Source: Plasmodiophora brassicae (lineage: Eukaryota; Endomyxa; Phytomyxea; Plasmodiophorida; Plasmodiophoridae). Taken from it: 64,000 nt of DNA. Location: the NCBI GenBank assembly GCA_039704465.1, contig JASFAU010000005.1, positions 1,054,001-1,118,000 of the forward strand, written 5' to 3'. The notes below the pieces were generated by a model, which saw only the letters and a list, made by a program, of their open reading frames with translations, was not told where the DNA came from and ran no database searches. Numbering within the stretch: the stretch's first letter is position 1; the number at the start of each line of letters is the position of its first letter. Both the position numbers and the translations under genes were made by a program. Below, piece by piece: positions 37,918 through 49,060 of this stretch.

Positions 37918-38792
37918 TCATTGCACATCTCCTAGGCCGGGTAAGGGATCCGGCATGAACCTCGTCATCATGTCCTCCCTGGTCAAGCCGACAAGCTTCA
38001 TGTTGATCCACAGCAGGCTGTACGAGAACCTCTCGTGCACCGTGTTTTCGGCCGTAGGCTTCTGGTCGTGCACTTCGACATTGCCCCAGTTTTCGTACGC
38101 TTCGCGAGCCTGGTGAACTGTTTCAAACCATATCTTAGGATCGTTTCGGAACAGACGTTGCACGCAGCCAAATCCCACCAGTTATCGCTGCGCCAGGGCC
38201 ACCCTGGAAAGCAATCATGGGGACGTACTCCTGCGAGTCGTGTGGTGGCGGTAACGGAATTTCATCAGGTTGAATCGATATCACGCCGCTGATCGGAATG
38301 TCAAGTTCCTTGCTGGCCGGTACGTTAGACGCAGGGATAAGCACCGGCGCCATGTGGGAAACGAACCATGATATTGCAACGTGAAGGGCCATAGTGGCGC
38401 CCTCCTTATAGCCACCAATGAATACCGGCACGTTCTGCCTACAGATCAATTGCCGGATATCATCCAGGTCCTTCTCGCGCGGTTCGTCTCCCGGGTACCA
38501 TGGGTGCGTCCTCGTTTCAGGGTCGTAACGAGCTGGGCGACAGGTCGGACCTCAACCAGTACTCCACATCATCAGATGACCACCAACCACGCGGCAGCAG
38601 CAGCTTGATCTTGTGCTTCAGGCCGCCCGTCTTCATGTACACCTCCCGGAAGTCCTTCGGGCCGACCTGGTTCCCGTGCAAGAAGACCAGCGACGTGAAG
38701 AACGTCGACGGATCCGCGTCCGTCGTCGACGACGCCATCGCCCGTCGTGCCAGCCGACCGCATCGTCCCACACGCAACCGCCGCAAGAGCAT
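37918..38792 (-). CDS. acyl-protein-thioesterase/carboxylesterase-like protein lacking the catalytic serine
   Basis: Alpha/beta-hydrolase of the phospholipase/carboxylesterase (APT) type: SLVFLHGNQVGPKDF at the oxyanion-loop position, KLLLPRGWWSSDDVEYW, then, after a 46-nt intron, THPWYPGDEPREKDLDDI. The nucleophile elbow is next. Where active APTs have GFSQGGA, this protein reads GYKEGA (coding around 38400), so lysine replaces the serine, and there is no splice site there that would change it. The Asp and His positions are also hard to find. The N-terminus MLLRRLRVGRCGRLARRA resembles a mitochondrial presequence. It is probably a pseudoenzyme. One intron near 38180-38250 is not settled. Confidence 0.65.
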
Positions 38793-38952: not shown

Positions 38953-41900
38953 CTACGGCGACGCCACCTGGAAGCAGGTGTCGCTGAACCAGGCGTGGTC
39001 ATCGAGGAAGTGGCCGACCACACGGAGGCCCGCCTTGGCCGCGAACGCCTCGATCTGCGCCAGGTCGTACTTGTACGAATTCTGCCCCCCGGGCACCGGT
39101 TAGCGTGTCGCACGGTGGTGCCCGCCACGCGCGCGGTTTACCTCGACGTGGATCGATTCGCGCGCCCGGAAGGGTATTTCCAGACGGCGCCCGTCGCCGT
39201 CGACCGTCACGACCAGGTCCTGCTTGGCGACCAGGTGGCTCTCCATGCGGCGACGGTCCGGATTGAACAGCGCCTCGTGCTCGAACTGTTCGCGCACGAT
39301 ATCCCCGCCCAGCTCGCGATTGATCCGATCCAGCAAGTTGTAGTTGAACTCGGCCGTCACCCCTGCGTCACGTCAGCAAACCGCTTGCCGTGTTTGAACA
39401 ACACGAGGCGTTTCTGACCGGCGGCGTCGCTGTAGGCATCGACCATAATGGAATGGTTCTCCTTGACGAGGTCGAAACCAACGATCAACAGATCGCCAAT
39501 GTTCAACGCTTCGCGGAGGTCGCGTAGAAGGGCCCCCGCTTTGTCACTGTCATAGTTGCCGATGGAACTGCCCAGGAACAGGACGACATTCGACATGCCC
39601 GGCCGGTCGACCTTCGTGGTCCAGCGCAGCGCTTCAACATTGTCACCGAGCAGCAACGTGGCATCGTCGACGTCGACCGCTGACGAGCGCAGGACGCTGT
39701 GCAGCGCGTTCAGAGCGCCCTGGGAGATGTCGATCGCCGTGTACGACAGCTGGATGCCACGCGAGCGGAGCGCTCGCAGGAACGGGATCGTCTTCGTCCC
39801 ATCACCTTCCGCAACGTCAGGCGCTTCCCGCGATGGATTCGCGAGTGGCCCCGACCTGCACCAATCTCGATCAGGTTCACCGAGGCCGGGTTCGCCAGCC
39901 TGGTCAGCAGGTCGGCGATCGCCGGTGCGTGCTTCTGCAGGATGTGGGCCTCCGTCCGCGTCAGATAGTACTCCTTCGTTTCCGTTATCTTCGTGTACCT
40001 GACGCGACGGTTAGCTTGCCAGCGGATCGAGCAATGCAGAACGAATCGCTTCCAGTTCCGATCCACGATCATCGTAGAAGTGCACGGAATCGATACGTTT
40101 CGGGTTAGAGCACAGCCCGACACGAACGTCGCCAGCGAACCGATCCGCCGCCGACGCGCTGCCCCAACCCGGGAGCGTCGCGAATCGCATGCGTTCGCGG
40201 CCAGCAACGACGTCACGACAGATGCGGAACTTGGCGAACGGGTAGATGTAATTCCTCTGGTACCTGTGCCACACAACCGCCCCGTTACGAAGAGAGGCCC
40301 AGCTGACGAGCTGGGGGCGAGCAGCAGACCAGTTCCGGAACGAGGGGCGCGTTAGGTTCTCGGTCGTCGCCCAGGATCCCCCTTTCATCACATAATGCTT
40401 GCCTAGAGCGGGGGCATTCGTTCAACATTGGACCGTGGTACGTCTCTCGGCGGTTCACTGGTACCGTCGAAGAAATCGGCCGAGTAGCCGGGGTACGACG
40501 CCACCGGTACGAAGTCTTTGGGATCGCCCAGAGGAGCGAACGGCGTTGACGTCCACTCCCATCCGTTGCCAACCAGGTCCCGCACGCCGAACGGGCTCGC
40601 TATTGACCAGCTGAGTTCGCAACGGTCGTCCGTCCAGCGACGACGCCCCGCACCTGAGTTCGACTCGTGCACAGGCTGCGTTCCCCAGTGCCGAAAGTTG
40701 ATGTTGACGTCGGCACGCGCGGGGCCCTCGTCTCCCCATGGGAACCGGGCGCGAGCATCACCGTATGCAGCGCGATGATATTCTACACGCAGCAAACCGG
40801 TGTCGACACATCTGAACGGTGAGTCGTTCGGTGGGGACGTTACCGGGTTCGGTCATAAGGCGCCCGCCATGGGACCGGCAGTACGCCTCCGCTTCGGCGT
40901 TCGAGACGAACACGGGATGGTCGGCCACCTCTGACAGCGGCACGTACTCGAACAGCGTTCGCACCAGCCTGCGAGCGGTGCGTCATCAGAGCAAGATCGG
41001 GCGCACGGACGCGTGACCTTGACCATTGCCCCGAGGCATCGTCGCGCTTCCACAGCGCCGGGTGTCGAACCTGGTCCCGGACGATCCACTGCCAGATGTC
41101 TGGTGCCCAGCTGGATTCCTCGCTGTAGGCGCCTTGTCCGACCCATTCCAGGTACTCTGCGTTCGTGACCGGAAGCGATTGCACGTGGAAGGCGCCCACC
41201 TCAACCGACACCTGCGGGAACTCATTGTCCCATCCGACTACGAGCAGCGTTACGAGGTCATCGACGGCAGCGGTTCGGCAATGGGCGTACAGGATGTGTC
41301 AGAGCGCGCCATGCCCAGGACGGCCGTTCCATCTGGGACGGTGCACTGAACACGGTCCCACGTCGTCGTGCCCGCTGCTCCTGGACGGCGCTCGGGCACC
41401 GATTCGGGACGCGACACGTGCATGGGATCGCATTGCATCATCATGTACAGCAGCGCTGGCAGGGGCGGTCAGCAACGCGGGCACATCCTGAGGCGGTCGC
41501 CGTACGTACTCTCTTGGTGCATCTGCTCGTGCTCGACGATGATATCGACGACGCCGCCGAGGCGCATCTCGTGCAGTGTACCGATGCACCCGACGACACG
41601 ACGGCGGACGTCGTTGACGTAGTGGACGACCGCATCCATGGCCGGCCAAATGTCTTTGTTCGCATCAGCACTGTGCGCATGGCACTCGCCTGTGGTCACG
41701 TCCGGGTCCATGCCACGCTCGCTACGTTCGTTCCAGCACGATCAGCGCCCCGGGGGGACGTATCGCACAAAGTACATACAAGAGAGCGTCGAAGTCGACG
41801 TTGCCCCGGCGTGGAGCGCGTTTGCCCAAGGCGGCGACAACCTGGTTCATGGCGAACGCCGGCAGGTGGCCGACGTAGAACAGGAACGGGTGCCGCAACG

Positions 41901-42036
41901 CGATGGGTCGCAGCAGGAACCCGTCACCGTTCAGGCAGGAGAAGATCTGGTCCGTCCTTGCCCATGTTTCGCGCAACTCCAACGCTTTCGTCAGCGTCTT
42001 CGAATCCGGGCTGCCTTCCACAACGAACGACGCCAT
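38953..42036 (-). CDS. EgtB-EgtD ergothioneine synthase (copy A, lacks the PLP domain)
   Basis: Bifunctional enzyme. The EgtB half joins cysteine to hercynine via a sulfoxide; the EgtD half makes hercynine from histidine and SAM. Order: DinB domain (RHPFLFYVGHLPAFAMNQV; iron-ligand motif EHEQMHQES), FGE-sulfatase domain (PVTNAEYLEWV; GNGWEWTS; VMKGGSWATT; FRNW), then EgtD (LIEIGAG, NVVLFLGSSIGNYDSD, EFNYNLLDRINRELGGD, a C-terminal ASP stop at 38953). Fungal Egt1 has the opposite order, EgtD then EgtB. Many introns; for example the first, after FDALL, is about 57 nt. Start ATG 42036 reads MASFV, aligned with RLASFV at the PLP/EgtB junction of copy B, so this copy is a 5'-truncated duplicate with a new start. 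No disabling change was seen. Confidence 0.8.
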
Positions 42037-42417: not shown

Positions 42418-45400
42418 CTATTTGGAGACAACTTGGAAACACGTATCGGTGAACCAGGACTTGTCGTCGAGGAAGTGGTGGACCACGTGCAACCCGACCT
42501 TTCCTGCGAACGTCTCGATCTGCCCCAGCTCGTACTTGTACGAATTCTGTGAGCGACGCTGTCGTTTAGGGCATGATCGCTGTGCGGTTAGTGTGCCGCG
42601 ATACCTCAATGTGAATGGTTTCACGTGCCCGGAACGGGACCGCCAGACGCTGCCCGTCTTCATCGCCGTCGATGGAGACGACCAGGTCCTGGCTGGCGAC
42701 CAGGTGGCTCTCCATCCGGTTGTGCACCGGGTTGAACAACGCCTGGTGCTCAAAGCGAATGCGATCGAAATCGCCGCCCAGTTCGCGATTGACACGATCC
42801 AGCAAGTTGTAGTTGAATTCGGCGGTCACGCCTGCAGGCAGAAACCTTCAGCAAACCGCTCGACATGCAGGTAGCAACCGCCCCTGACCAGCTGCGTCGC
42901 TGTAGGCATCAATCATAATGGAGTGGTTCTCCTTGACGAGGTCGAAACCAACGATCAACAGATCGCCAACGTTCAACGCATCGCGAAGGTCGTGTAGAAG
43001 GGCCTCCGCTTTGTCATTGTCGTAGTTGCCGATGGAGCTGCCCAGGAACAGGACGACATTCGACATGCCCGGCCGGTCGACCTGCGTGGTCCACCGCAGG
43101 GCCTCAACGTTATCCCCGAGCAAGAACGTCGCATCGGTGACGTCGACCGCCGACGAGCGCAGGGCGCCTCGCAACGCGTCCAGCGCGCCCTGGGAAATAT
43201 CGATCGCAGTGTACGACAGCTGGATGCCACGAGACCGAAGCGCTTGCAGCAATGGGATCGTCTTCTTCCCGTCACCTGCCACAGCCATGGGTTGGGAACG
43301 CGTCGTGTGATCAGCGAACATTCATGGCTAACCCGACCTGCACCGATTTCGATCAGGTTGATGGACGACGGGTTCGGCAGCAGCGTCAGGACGGCAGCGA
43401 TCGTTGGCGCATGGTCCTGCAGGATCCGCGTCTCCGTCCGCGTCAGGTAGTACTCCTCCGTTTCCGTGATCATCGCGAACCTATTCGGATTAGGGGGACC
43501 ATGCCAGGAAGCACATCTGGCAACCGCTCACAGTTCCGATCCACGGTCATCATAGAAGTGCATGGAGTCGATGCGCTTCGGGTTCGAGGACAGCCCAGCA
43601 CGAACGTCGCGTGCGAACCGACCCTCCAACGACTGCTTGTTCCACCCCGGTAGCGTCACGAACCGGTACGACGTGGCGTCGCGGTCGTCCGCCTCAATGT
43701 CGCGACAGATTCGGAACTTGGCGAACGGGTAGACGTAATTCTTCTGGTACCTGTGCCGGTGTGGCTTCAGACGTCGACGCGCACGTTTACAGATGATAGG
43801 GGCGCAGCGAACCAGTTCCGGAACGACGGGCGCGTCATGTTCGTCGCTGTTGCCCACGATCCCCCCTTCATCACGTAATGTTTCCCTATCGTGACAGTAT
43901 CAGGCACCCACGTCCAGGTTCGATGGCCATTGTCGGTACCGTCGAAGAAGTCGGCCGAGTACCCGGGGTACGATGGCATCGGTGTGAATTGCAGAGGGTC
44001 TCCCAGTGGCATGAACTGGGAAGACGTCCACTCCCACCCGTTGCCAATCAGGTCCCGCACCCCAAACGGGCTCGCTGCGAACCGTTAAGCGCCAGGCGAA
44101 GGGAACCTCGACCACAACGCACCTGAATTCGACTGCCACACAGGTTGGGTACCCCAATGCCGAAAGTCAACGTTAACGCCGGCCTGCTCAGGAGCATCAT
44201 TGCCCCATGGAAACGGATGACAGGTGTCACCGTATGCAGCGCGATGGTACTCTACGTCAAACGCATTTGGACATCGTGTACGGAAGCGAGCGTCGGCTTC
44301 AGCGTACCGGGTTCGGTCATGAGTCGACCGCCATGGGACCGGCAGTACGCATCTGCTTCGGCGTTCGAGACGAACACCGGATGGTCGGCGACTTCCGACA
44401 GGGGTACGTACTCGAAAAGCGTACGCACCATCCTGTGGCAGTAAACGTGGGCACACAACCATCCGCTTCAGCGCAGTACTGACCACTGCTTTGAGACATC
44501 GTCGTACCTCCACAGCGCCGGGTGTCGAATCTGGTCCCGCACGATCCACCGCCAGACGTCTGGTGGCCAGTTGGACTCGACCGTGTACGCCCCTCCGTCG
44601 ACCCACTCCAGGTACTCTGCGTTCGTGACAGGAAGCCGTTGCACACGAAAGGCGCCAACGTCAACGGACACCTGCGGAAACTCGTTGTCCCATCCGACTA
44701 TCAACAGCATTAGAAAATCACCGACAAGCGGTTCGGCAATGGCCTACAGGTCGTGGCACAGCGAGACATGCCCAGCACAGCCTTTCCCCCAGGGATGGTG
44801 CACTGCATCGGTTCGCATGACGCCTTATGCATTGGAATCAGCGGGCGCTCCCGAAGCGATTCGGGCCGCGACAGGTGCACGGGATCGCATTGCATCATCA
44901 TGTACAAAAGTGCTGCAAGGAGACAGCCATCAGGAGCACAGTTCACGTATGGCAAGGCCGCATTACTCTCTTGGTGCATCTGCTCGTGCTCGATGATGAT
45001 GTCGACGACATATCCGAGGCGCATCTCAAGCAGGACCTCGACGCACCCTAGGATTCGCTGTCGAGTATCACAAGCATACTTGACGACATCATCAATCGCC
45101 GGCCAGACGTCGTTGTTCGCATCGGCGCTGTGCGCGTGACATTCCCCTGTTACCACGTCCGGGTCCATGCCACGCTCACTACACACTGTAAGGGCAGTGT
45201 CCAGTTGGAACCGTTGCATGGTGCACGTACAACAGAGCATCGAAGTTGGCGTTGGCGCGAACTGGGGCGAGCTTCCCCAGGGCGCGGGCGACCTGGTTCA
45301 TGGCGAACGCGGGTAGGTGGCCGACGTAGAACAGGAACGGGTGCCGCAACGTGATGGGGCGTAGCAGGAACCCGTCGGCAGACAGAAAGGAGAAGACCTG

Positions 45401-46858
45401 GTCCGACCTCGCCCATGCTTTCTGCAGCGCCGCTTCCGTCTTTGTTGACATTGCTCGAGGGTACTGCTCCTTCACGAACGATGCCAGGCGCCGAACGCCT
45501 TCCCGGATGACCTTCTCACGTGTTACCAAATGGGAATGTCGACACCCAAGATGCGAACGTACGTCGGGTTGATCTGCGAATACAACACGGACCCATCTAC
45601 GTCCTGGATAACTGAAACGGGACCCAGGATGGACCACGACCTTCGCCTGCGTTAGGATGTCGTTGACCAGAGCGCCGTCGTCGTCATGGCCATCGTTCGT
45701 GTTCAGCTCCACCATGATGGTCAACCCGGCATCAGCGACGACGTGCGCGTTGATTCGGTGCCGGTGGAGTTCGTTGTAGATCAATCGGTATGCAGCCGTC
45801 AGACGTTTGCTAGCGCATTCCATTAGCGCCGCTGGCGTGTCTCGATCGTGGAACGCCTTGGCAATGAACTCTTGCGTAGGATTGCTGATCTGGGTCAGGG
45901 TGGACAACGACGAGAACGTTGACGACTGGTGTCGGGTGTAGACGGCACCAACGTGAAGGCCAGCAAGGCCCGCTTTCGACAATCCCGTTACCACGTGGAC
46001 GTGGTCGTTGCTGTGGGCGTAGCGCAACGCGGAACAGAACTTGGAATTCGGCCACGAATGCAGCGATACAGCCAGCACCTCGTCCACGATCACGTGGATA
46101 CCGCGCGTATGCTCGACCACCTTCTCCAGGTCCGACCTGTGGTTGGACACAAGCATTAGCAAGAATGGCGACCGCAATGAACGTTCGTAACCTGGTCCAC
46201 AGTTGTCCCGTTGGCGTCGTTGGATTACAAAGGACCAGTGCGGCAATCGACGGGTTAGCGTTCAGACACGACAGCAAGGCATCCACCGACTATAACGGAG
46301 ACGAATGACGAAATTGGCATTTGAACAACAATTGCGATCGCTTGCGAACCTTCCCCAAGTCGACAGCGATTTCAATTGTGTCGAGGACACCTCTGCAACG
46401 AATGCACCGCATGGCACCTGGATGTGTTGGCGTCACGATGCCGACCACCTGCCCCGGTTGACATAGACTCTGCCGTTTCGTTGAGCTGAATATCCCTGAA
46501 ACCGGACGGCACAACTGACGTGAACAAGAAGGTCGAAAGCAGCATCACATCCGGAGGTCATCGTCAGGTTGGAAGCGTCCAGTTGGCGTCGATCGATGCC
46601 ACTGATGACAGATAGCAGCTCGAGAAACGCAGCCCGGCAGTCGCGCGAGCCCTGCTGAATCCCGTATCTAGTGACGCCCCGGTATTAGATCACCGACATC
46701 GTCATTTGCCCATTGAATCCGTACCGAGTCGTTGCCGTGGTAGGGGCGCAGCTCTGCAGGCGTGGCCGCCAGAAATCCAGGAGAAGGCGGTTCTCTGCAT
46801 AGGCCAGCTCAATGACCCCGTCCGGGTTGCGCCCGTCCTCGTACGCATCCAGCGACAT
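42418..46858 (-). CDS. aminotransferase-like/EgtB/EgtD fusion (copy B), candidate complete ergothioneine pathway enzyme
   Basis: N-terminal fold-type I PLP domain of the ACC-synthase/aminotransferase kind: NPDGVIELAYAEN, MTSGCDAAFDLL, LCNPTTPTGQLW, DEVLAVS, the Schiff-base lysine in GLSKAGLAGLHVG, and the carboxylate-binding arginine region SRFSYPGRRWVRVVF. The same open frame (45179-46246) continues without a break through VRRLASFVKEQYPRA into the EgtB DinB domain (RHPFLFYVGHLPAFAMNQV; EHEQMHQES), then FGE-sulfatase (GNGWEWTSSQF; KGGSWATATN) and EgtD (FLGSSIGNYDND; NYNLLDRVNRELGGDF), stopping at 42418. Introns are about 50-56 nt. Inference: the PLP domain could be the C-S lyase that releases ergothioneine. 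ATG 46858 gives a rather short N-terminus; an upstream exon is possible. Confidence 0.8.
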
Positions 46859-47522: not shown

Positions 47523-48694
47523 TTATCCATACGTTGTCGCCGGCTTCAGGTCCAAGAGATCAAATGCTAATCGGACGAGATCTTCACCAGTCTGGATGTT
47601 GTATGATGCGACTGACGATGGGACCTGTACCGCCCCCGCATAACGACCATAGATGTCCTGTGTCCACGACGGGAGAAACCAAAACCTGACCATGGACGAG
47701 TAAGTACGGTTCGGGGTGTAAACGTACGAGCGATAACTTATACTTCTGGAACGGCGTGAGGTAAATCAGATCGCCCGAGTTCTCGTAGAGGGGATCGGTT
47801 GCCGCGGCAATTGACGTAGATGCGCCTTGGTCGGTGTTAAGGAACACAACGCTCGCCAGCGTCTTGAAGAGCGATCGCAGCGGTTCGAAAAGGAACGACC
47901 GCCAGATGTCAGAATTTACAGGCCCAGGGTTTAGTGTTATCGACGTCACACCGTCACGTTCTGTTCGGGTACGTTGGCAGTGATACGTGTACAGGATCTG
48001 AGCGAGCTTTCTACAAAGCAGCAGATAGTAAGAACGACATTTCGTATCCGGGGAATACAACGAACGATGTCCCATATGATTGCGTAAGGCTGAAGCGGGT
48101 CGCACGGACGAAGAAATTCGTCGCTCCAAGACGATGAATAACTGATGACACGTGGACAACACGCGACGGTGCCGATTTGACAAGCATGGGCCATAGAAGT
48201 TCAGTCAGCAGCACATGCGACAGGAAGTTGACCTACGATAAACGATACAGTAAGAAACAAAGACTGCCAGAAACGCATAAGCGCTGCCGTCTAAAACCTG
48301 GAATAGAAGTTCATACCCATCGACAGTGATCGATTCCTTGTTTCCAGCCAGCCCAGCATTGTTAACTAGAATCTGTTCCAGAGCCTTACTGACCACATGC
48401 AAGCGTTTGGACGCTTCTCCAAGTTACGTGCAGATTGGAAAACTGTGACGAGAACTTCTTGGCGAACGCCCTGACAGTCGACAAATCTTCCAGGTCAACA
48501 TGCATGTAGATCAGCCGCGGCGACGACGCGCCGGCCGCCCGCAGAATATCCCGCTCGATGCACTGCCTAGTCTTGCGTTCGTTCCGGCACGCCAGCACGA
48601 CCGTGTAACCCTTGTCGTACAGCGCTGCCGCCGTCCGCAACCCGATCCCCGACGACGCACCCGTCACGATCGCCACGCAGTCACCGACAGCCAT
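47523..48694 (-). CDS. short-chain dehydrogenase/reductase, retinol-dehydrogenase-like
   Basis: NAD(P)-dependent oxidoreductase of the classical SDR fold. Glycine-rich cofactor motif VTGASSGIG with CRNERKTRQ after beta-2, the MHVDLEDLSTVRAF acidic turn, LVNNAGL, VVHVSSVIHRLG, and the active-site region where SKLAQILYTYH supplies the Lys of YxxxK. Then LNPGPVNSDI, the PG motif. The last exon, joined by a 40-nt intron, begins DIYGRYAGAVQVPSSVASYN and ends at 47523. Start ATG 48694 gives MAVGDCVAIVTGASSG. Some internal splice points, including around the catalytic Tyr (near 48015), were not fixed. Substrate unknown; RDH/WWOX-like members act on retinoids, lipids or steroids. Confidence 0.75.
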
Positions 48695-49060
48695 TTTCCA
48701 GACTGAACCGCTTGTAGGTAAGGCAGTACCAGGTAACGCATTGCTGGCTGCACGGCTGCAGGCCACGCATGGGACCGGATGTGCAGTTGGCAGTCTGACC
48801 CGGACCCGGGGCACATTCGGCGGGCCTGTAACGGGCACCCGCCCCGTGACCTGCAATCCGTCCTATTCAACGATGGCTCGTGCCAGCGCTAATTTCCCTA
48901 ACTGTATCGCCAGACGCCTGTCAACAACGGTAGCGATTGTCCTGTTGCTGCTGATCTGTCACTAAATACCAACGGACGCGCATGCAATAGCGTATTCCGC
49001 GTCGCCAGTAGCCGGTCGCGCGACAAATCCAACATCGGGGGTTGCGGAACTTGTGCCCGA
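48695..49060. other. intergenic region, nothing recognised
   Basis: Upstream of the SDR gene. The minus-strand frame continuing upstream of ATG 48694 is Pro/Arg-rich and lacks support. No RNA gene was recognised. Confidence 0.25.

Follow-up and report, generated by a model that had tools for sequence, protein, structure and literature searches.

A four-domain fusion protein of Plasmodiophora brassicae as a candidate single-chain ergothioneine synthase

A 64,000-nucleotide stretch of Plasmodiophora brassicae DNA (contig JASFAU010000005.1; the whole stretch is called the window below) carries on its minus strand a gene, here named gene A, that joins a pyridoxal phosphate (PLP) domain of the 1-aminocyclopropane-1-carboxylate (ACC) synthase family to the DinB and FGE-sulfatase domains of a sulfoxide synthase and to the histidine methyltransferase EgtD. 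This four-domain, single-chain architecture is established. As to function, the best-supported reading, and in our judgement a probable one, is that the chain by itself turns histidine and cysteine into ergothioneine, with a putative lyase step assigned to the PLP domain. We also favour, with slightly more reserve, the wider proposal that a complete aerobic ergothioneine pathway with an ACC-synthase-family lyase resides in one polypeptide and is conserved as a whole in Rhizaria, in Mesostigma (a streptophyte alga) and in one or more further lineages.

Four domains in one reading frame

Gene A starts with the ATG at 46858 and its stop codon ends at 42418 on the minus strand, exactly where the original prediction, made from the letters of the window, had placed the gene. 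In the splicing model it comprises 18 exons and 17 introns, every intron being GT-AG and 48-62 nucleotides (nt) long, and the spliced frame continues without interruption over 1171 codons. When the conceptual protein was searched with Pfam, a check that the prediction had proposed, all four domains exceeded their own cut-offs, in the order Aminotran_1_2 (residues 19-368, E = 1.4e-32), DinB_2 (387-524, 5.4e-8), FGE-sulfatase (561-818, 9.9e-39) and Methyltransf_33/EgtD (849-1167, 1.1e-87). The closest database record, the protein P0001 (1173 amino acids) of the phytomyxean rhizarian P. brassicae, is identical to gene A at 1160 of 1174 aligned positions (99%), the remainder being 10 differences and 4 gap positions, namely one codon at the intron 5 acceptor and three residues near residue 830. 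The open frame, the four Pfam domains and the agreement with P0001 together bear out the claim that a PLP domain, EgtB and EgtD are combined in one polypeptide.

The frame 45179-46246, which had been described as running unbroken from the PLP domain into DinB, is indeed open but is partly intronic: it reads across an in-frame 48-nt intron (45562-45515), both its ends are intronic or out of frame, and only 46136-45563 and 45514-45231 are coding. The continuity of the two domains through a short linker nevertheless stands, since both lie in the stop-free exon 45514-45231, which codes for the final PLP helix and the first part of DinB; the two Pfam matches stand 18 residues apart. The features of gene A are as follows.

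42418..46858, minus strand: gene A, PLP-DinB-FGE-EgtD fusion, 1171 amino acids (splicing model, Pfam, P0001)
45485..46858, minus strand: ACC-synthase-family PLP domain, residues 1-368, with Lys221 (Schiff base), Asp185 and Arg350 (Pfam, PDB profile search, tree, residue table)
45231..45514, minus strand: exon 6, with the PLP end, the linker (residues 369-386) and the DinB start; P0001 begins this exon one codon later (splicing model, Pfam, P0001)
44911..45430, minus strand: DinB domain, residues 387-524, with presumed iron ligands H423, H516 and H520 in P0001 numbering (Pfam, alignment)
43708..44802, minus strand: FGE-sulfatase domain of the sulfoxide synthase, residues 561-818, with hercynine-pocket Y/N/W (Pfam, alignments, motif scan)
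42433..43617, minus strand: EgtD histidine N-alpha-methyltransferase domain, residues 849-1167 (Pfam, Foldseek)

A PLP domain joined to the sulfoxide synthase was found in 4 of the 26 distinct proteins recovered by three database searches (P0001, P0003, P0004 and P0022). Each search scored about 8000 candidates, chosen by most shared words, so that this distribution is a lower bound. P0003 (jgi/Mesvir1, read as Mesostigma viride) is a predicted protein of 1925 amino acids with long low-complexity inserts, and P0022 and P0004 are ENA proteins of 1271 and 1108 amino acids, respectively. All four domains occur in identical order in P0001, P0003 and P0022, while P0004 holds the first three only, its C-terminus leaving the family ahead of EgtD. 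The fused relatives share 32-37% identity with the P. brassicae protein by local BLAST and 37-40% in multiple alignments, and the PLP/DinB junction is common to all four proteins. Because the junction recurs in three further proteins at 32-40% identity, chance or a local annotation error is unlikely, and the occurrence of the same domain order in distant lineages is supported by P. brassicae, Mesostigma and P0022.

In P0004, which stands for 27 member sequences, the FGE domain is followed by non-family sequence, resembling what a read-through intron would give. Viral contigs were also considered as a source of relatives and rejected: 83 stretches matched patterns from the three-row alignment A1, none of them a relative. 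Prokaryote genome contigs gave 51 matching stretches, and nine of these code for PLP-domain relatives; in the DNA around these nine, tblastn queries made from the EgtB and EgtD parts had no match at 1e-3.

Predicted chemistry of the domains

The proposed route would begin at the C-terminus, where the EgtD domain is predicted from its family to trimethylate histidine to hercynine. Pfam (PF10017, 294.4 bits against a cut-off of 23), the PDB match and Foldseek all identify this methyltransferase as EgtD, the Foldseek match to 4pip having a TM-score (target) of 0.94. The DinB/FGE iron centre would then join hercynine, cysteine and oxygen to form hercynylcysteine sulfoxide, as suggested by its family, a histidine triad and a hercynine-type pocket. 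Compared with the PDB, the sulfoxide-synthase part scored highest against EgtB-IV (177.7 and 166.3 bits), followed by EgtB (135.2), OvoA (134.0) and OvsA (105.5). H423, H516 and H520 (P0001 numbering) of the DinB domain are invariant across a 20-row alignment, and we take them to be the iron ligands of the EgtB-type three-His site. At the hercynine-pocket positions, read off printed alignments, gene A has Y/N/W, as do EgtB 4x8b and EgtB-IV 8vig, whereas OvoA has F/Y/A; this agrees with the earlier assignment of the EgtB part to the hercynine type. The OvsA triple variant 8ux5, hercynine-binding by its title, has Y, N and F at the three positions, and a motif scan found a Y/N/W or Y/N/F pocket in all four fused proteins. 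Foldseek further backs the EgtD and EgtB folds of the AlphaFold model. Judged from these comparisons, hercynine chemistry appears to be the better reading than ovothiol chemistry, though the NCBIfam OvoA model outscores the EgtB model.

In the last step, the N-terminal PLP domain would cleave the C-beta-S bond, releasing pyruvate and ammonia and leaving ergothioneine, a role suggested by the fusion, the lineage and the residues. Searched alone against solved structures, the PLP domain of gene A matched plant ACC synthases (ACS) best (1.4e-24) and the PatB C-S lyase second (5.4e-10); with a profile of the four fused PLP domains the same two ranks were reached at 2.5e-65 and 2e-20. A search for close relatives that consist of the PLP domain alone, limited to sequences sharing exact words, gave one fish ACCS-like and three aminotransferase-like proteins besides P0001. 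A maximum-likelihood tree of 20 rows (the four fused domains, three plant ACS, the fish ACCS-like protein, the three aminotransferase-like proteins P0024-P0026 and the nine bacterial relatives) grouped the fused domains with the three plant ACS and the fish protein at 100/100 support, and the other 12 class I aminotransferase-like rows fell outside this group. Placement inside an ordinary aminotransferase clade, which the original prediction had named as an outcome that would refute it, was thus not observed in this small tree.

EgtE and Egt2, the lyases of bacteria and fungi, are class V-type PLP enzymes. Both turned up among the class V matches in our searches, and they are compared with each other in the available part of PMC10805701. 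Aminotran_5 (PF00266) was not found in gene A, PF00155 being the only PLP family matched at E 0.01. The absence of an Aminotran_5 match and the ACS profile match of 2.5e-65 support the earlier view that the domain is ACC-synthase-like and of another family than EgtE and Egt2, and on this sequence evidence the putative lyase domain is best read as recruited independently of those class V enzymes.

The catalytic Lys, the pyridine Asp and the carboxylate Arg are each kept in all four fused PLP domains. The position of AtACS7 Q98 is G/E/E/E in the fused set, with glutamine in none and Q in apple and tomato ACS, from which the position was judged, the AtACS7 chain 7dly as printed having G there. 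According to the accessible text of Xu et al. 2021 (PMC8580319), this glutamine is required for ACC synthesis, and some ACS-like proteins without it are C-beta-S lyases.

Contrary evidence and competing explanations

A number of observations weigh against the chain being a complete ergothioneine synthase. Within the PLP domain, the O3' Tyr position is L/F/F/F in the fused set (Tyr in none of four), the phosphate Arg position is H/R/K/K (Arg in one of four), and the O3' Asn is kept in three of the four and replaced by H in P0004. The branch separating the four fused PLP domains from the four ACS rows is weak (75/54). The AlphaFold model, built from a 20-row alignment with a mean pLDDT of 72.4, has low confidence in the PLP part, with blocks at 30-80; no conclusion on the PLP active site is drawn from it because of these blocks, and among the 50 Foldseek matches listed for the model there was no PLP enzyme. 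DinB_2 lies under its Pfam cut-off of 24.8 bits in P0004 (23.7) and P0022 (19.8), and at the first pocket position EgtB-IV 8vih has N instead of Y (N/N/W). In addition, none of three NCBIfam cut-offs was reached: TIGR03438, the EgtD equivalog (278.9 against 290.9 bits, 12 short), TIGR03440 for EgtB (194.6 against 360) and TIGR04344 for OvoA (236.2 against 400). Finally, a class V Egt2-like gene, L018, is present elsewhere in the genome.

This gene is the main rival to a fused lyase. In that explanation, which we regard as unlikely though deserving serious weight, the chain yields hercynylcysteine sulfoxide and a separate class V protein (cysteine desulfhydrase/Egt2-like) cleaves the C-S bond, the fused PLP domain having another function, for example a structural one or that of an aminotransferase or a general cysteine lyase. 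It gains from the relaxed PLP-contact residues of the fused domain, from a tandem copy of gene A, gene B, that has no PLP domain, and from the match of L018 to NcEgt2 (5uts) at 4.3e-29, the EgtE model matching L018 weakly as well. However, L018 is slightly closer to 8dl5 (6.1e-32), deposited as 'aminotransferase, class V/cysteine desulfurase', and it scores 47.7 with the EgtE model, whose cut-off is 400. A comparison at 12 NcEgt2 residues shows six kept in L018 (K247, Y134, D221, S196, T307 and H246) and five changed (Q224, C156, F48, R75 and F304), with H276 unaligned; R438 is also kept, as judged by eye in a second aligned piece. Moreover, EGT2 homologues occurred in every plant analysed, including angiosperms that lack ergothioneine (EGT) synthesis, in the available part of PMC13358676, and the presence of an Egt2-family protein alone is therefore no proof of the pathway. 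A separate lyase also leaves the recurrence of the fusion in three other sequences without explanation.

The genome was searched by exon-by-exon family matching over 25.34 Mb in 21 contigs. There were 12 exon matches to Aminotran_5 and 10 to Aminotran_1_2, gene A among the latter, and the EgtE model gave two weak exon matches, none above its cut-off, compared with matches in 14 of 14 control genomes, likewise none above it. Of 14 stretches retrieved, sequences from eight were scanned for family names and the other six were translated only. L018 itself (G000:C13:874500-878000), for which splicing is provisional, might act in other sulfur chemistry or be the rival lyase.

Far less probable is that the PLP domain has nothing to do with ergothioneine, being an ACC synthase or aminotransferase whose fusion arose by chance or serves co-regulation. 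Plant ACC synthases are its nearest solved relatives, but all four fused domains lack the glutamine that ACS activity requires (G/E/E/E at its position), and proteins only 32-40% identical share the fusion to the sulfoxide synthase. We give even less credence to an OvoA-like synthase making an ovothiol-type or 5-thio compound. In its favour, the NCBIfam model ovoA_Nterm outscores egtB (236.2 over 194.6 bits, both far under cut-off) and OvoA 8khq is the top Foldseek match across two domains; against it, the best PDB sequence match is EgtB-IV (177.7 bits against 134.0 for OvoA), the pocket is Y/N/W, unlike the F/Y/A of OvoA, and the C-terminal methyltransferase is EgtD. Least credible is an artefact in which two adjoining genes were merged, for although an internal ATG stands at 45446 ahead of DinB, the junction lies within a single stop-free exon and is the same in P0001, P0003, P0004 and P0022.

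Tandem copy and comparison with known systems

Downstream of gene A lies its tandem paralogue.

38953..42036, minus strand: gene B, tandem paralogue with DinB-FGE-EgtD and without a PLP domain (75% identity to gene A)

In the exon-by-exon genome search the EgtD and FGE families were found at these two loci only. The two genes differ with a nonsynonymous divergence (dN) of 0.156 and a synonymous divergence (dS) of 0.597 over 799 codons, and 11 of the 12 introns of gene B share place and phase with gene A, one of these 11 having been given a donor parallel to that of gene A while the database model P0002 sets it two codons later. In the EgtD tree gene B stands beside gene A within the fused set (98/97); given a single fusion event, this fits a later loss of the PLP domain from gene B. 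The start of gene B, MASFVVEG, resembles the PLP helix LASFVKEQ (14 of 16 nucleotides alike, E = 0.042); that it could be a relic of this helix is only a hint. In the EgtB tree, which has long branches, the fused set, gene B and the Kickxella Egt1-type protein P0009 are neighbours, and 14 EgtB-EgtD fusions stand well apart from them; the placement of P0009 is unsure because of its long branch.

At the EgtB/EgtD boundary of gene B (40066-39989, minus strand), GT is missing from the place that serves as donor in gene A; P0002 has another intron there, at the cost of part of a conserved EgtD motif, and a GC-AG intron is a further possibility. Gene B may have an impaired EgtD arm; gene A has an intact one. 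Upstream of gene A, at 47600-48860 (minus strand), a rough hand-joined translation identified the neighbouring gene as a short-chain dehydrogenase (PF00106, E = 7.3e-25), and the downstream gene at 37940-38760 (minus strand) resembles a small serine hydrolase by eye, its rough translation having no Pfam match at E 0.1. Rfam matched nothing in the window.

If the chain does carry its own lyase, it would provide a one-gene aerobic route to ergothioneine in which a separate lyase is not needed, and the final step would have been solved a second time by another PLP family. The clubroot protist and Mesostigma would then be predicted producers of ergothioneine, and further producers could be sought with a wider pattern. 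The architecture might also be useful for one-gene production of a commercially wanted antioxidant. In the available part of Kock et al. 2026 (PMC13358676), ergothioneine is shown in streptophyte algae and non-flowering plants, EGT1 is defined as EgtD followed by FGE, and one KCM-grade alga, Klebsormidium, has EGT1; a search in M. viride is not mentioned in that part. The architecture of gene A falls outside this definition because the definition demands EgtD and then FGE. Organisms scored as EGT1-negative may thus be producers, since surveys demanding EgtD before FGE and a class V EGT2 would miss it. For P. brassicae, the portion of Zhang et al. 2023 (PMC10094275) at hand describes ergothioneine applied to spores and plants, and no mention of synthesis by the protist was found in that portion.

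A literature search, reaching mostly sources short of full texts, found no description of the order PLP-DinB-FGE-EgtD, in line with the original prediction, and the known systems each share part of it. The EgtB-EgtD fusions P0005-P0008 and P0010-P0019, probably bacterial (P0019, a Caulobacter metagenome-assembled genome, is the sole one of the 14 named as such), likewise hold DinB, FGE and EgtD in one chain according to their Pfam lists, the order DinB-FGE-EgtD having been checked for P0005; they differ in having no PLP domain listed and in an EgtB that is distant in the tree. Plant ACC synthases and ACS-like C-beta-S lyases belong to the same PLP family but are stand-alone enzymes, none of them reported to act on hercynylcysteine sulfoxide in the accessible text of PMC8580319. 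Hydrozoan OvoB-OvoA fusions, as described in the part of PMC9103826 available to us (citing Gerdol 2019), also join a PLP lyase to a sulfoxide synthase, but they serve ovothiol synthesis and use a histidine-type synthase together with the OvoA methyltransferase. The metallopterin-dependent ergothioneine synthase (MES) likewise unites a PLP enzyme with an ergothioneine-forming domain, but it is anaerobic, combines a cysteine desulfurase with a metallopterin domain and leaves the histidine methyltransferase separate (PMC9516567, available text). Fungal Egt1 and Egt2 also provide a eukaryotic chain that unites EgtD with a DinB/FGE sulfoxide synthase; in gene A, however, the order is reversed, with EgtB before a C-terminal EgtD, and the putative lyase is fused and of the class I/II ACS type, whereas Egt2 is separate and of class V.

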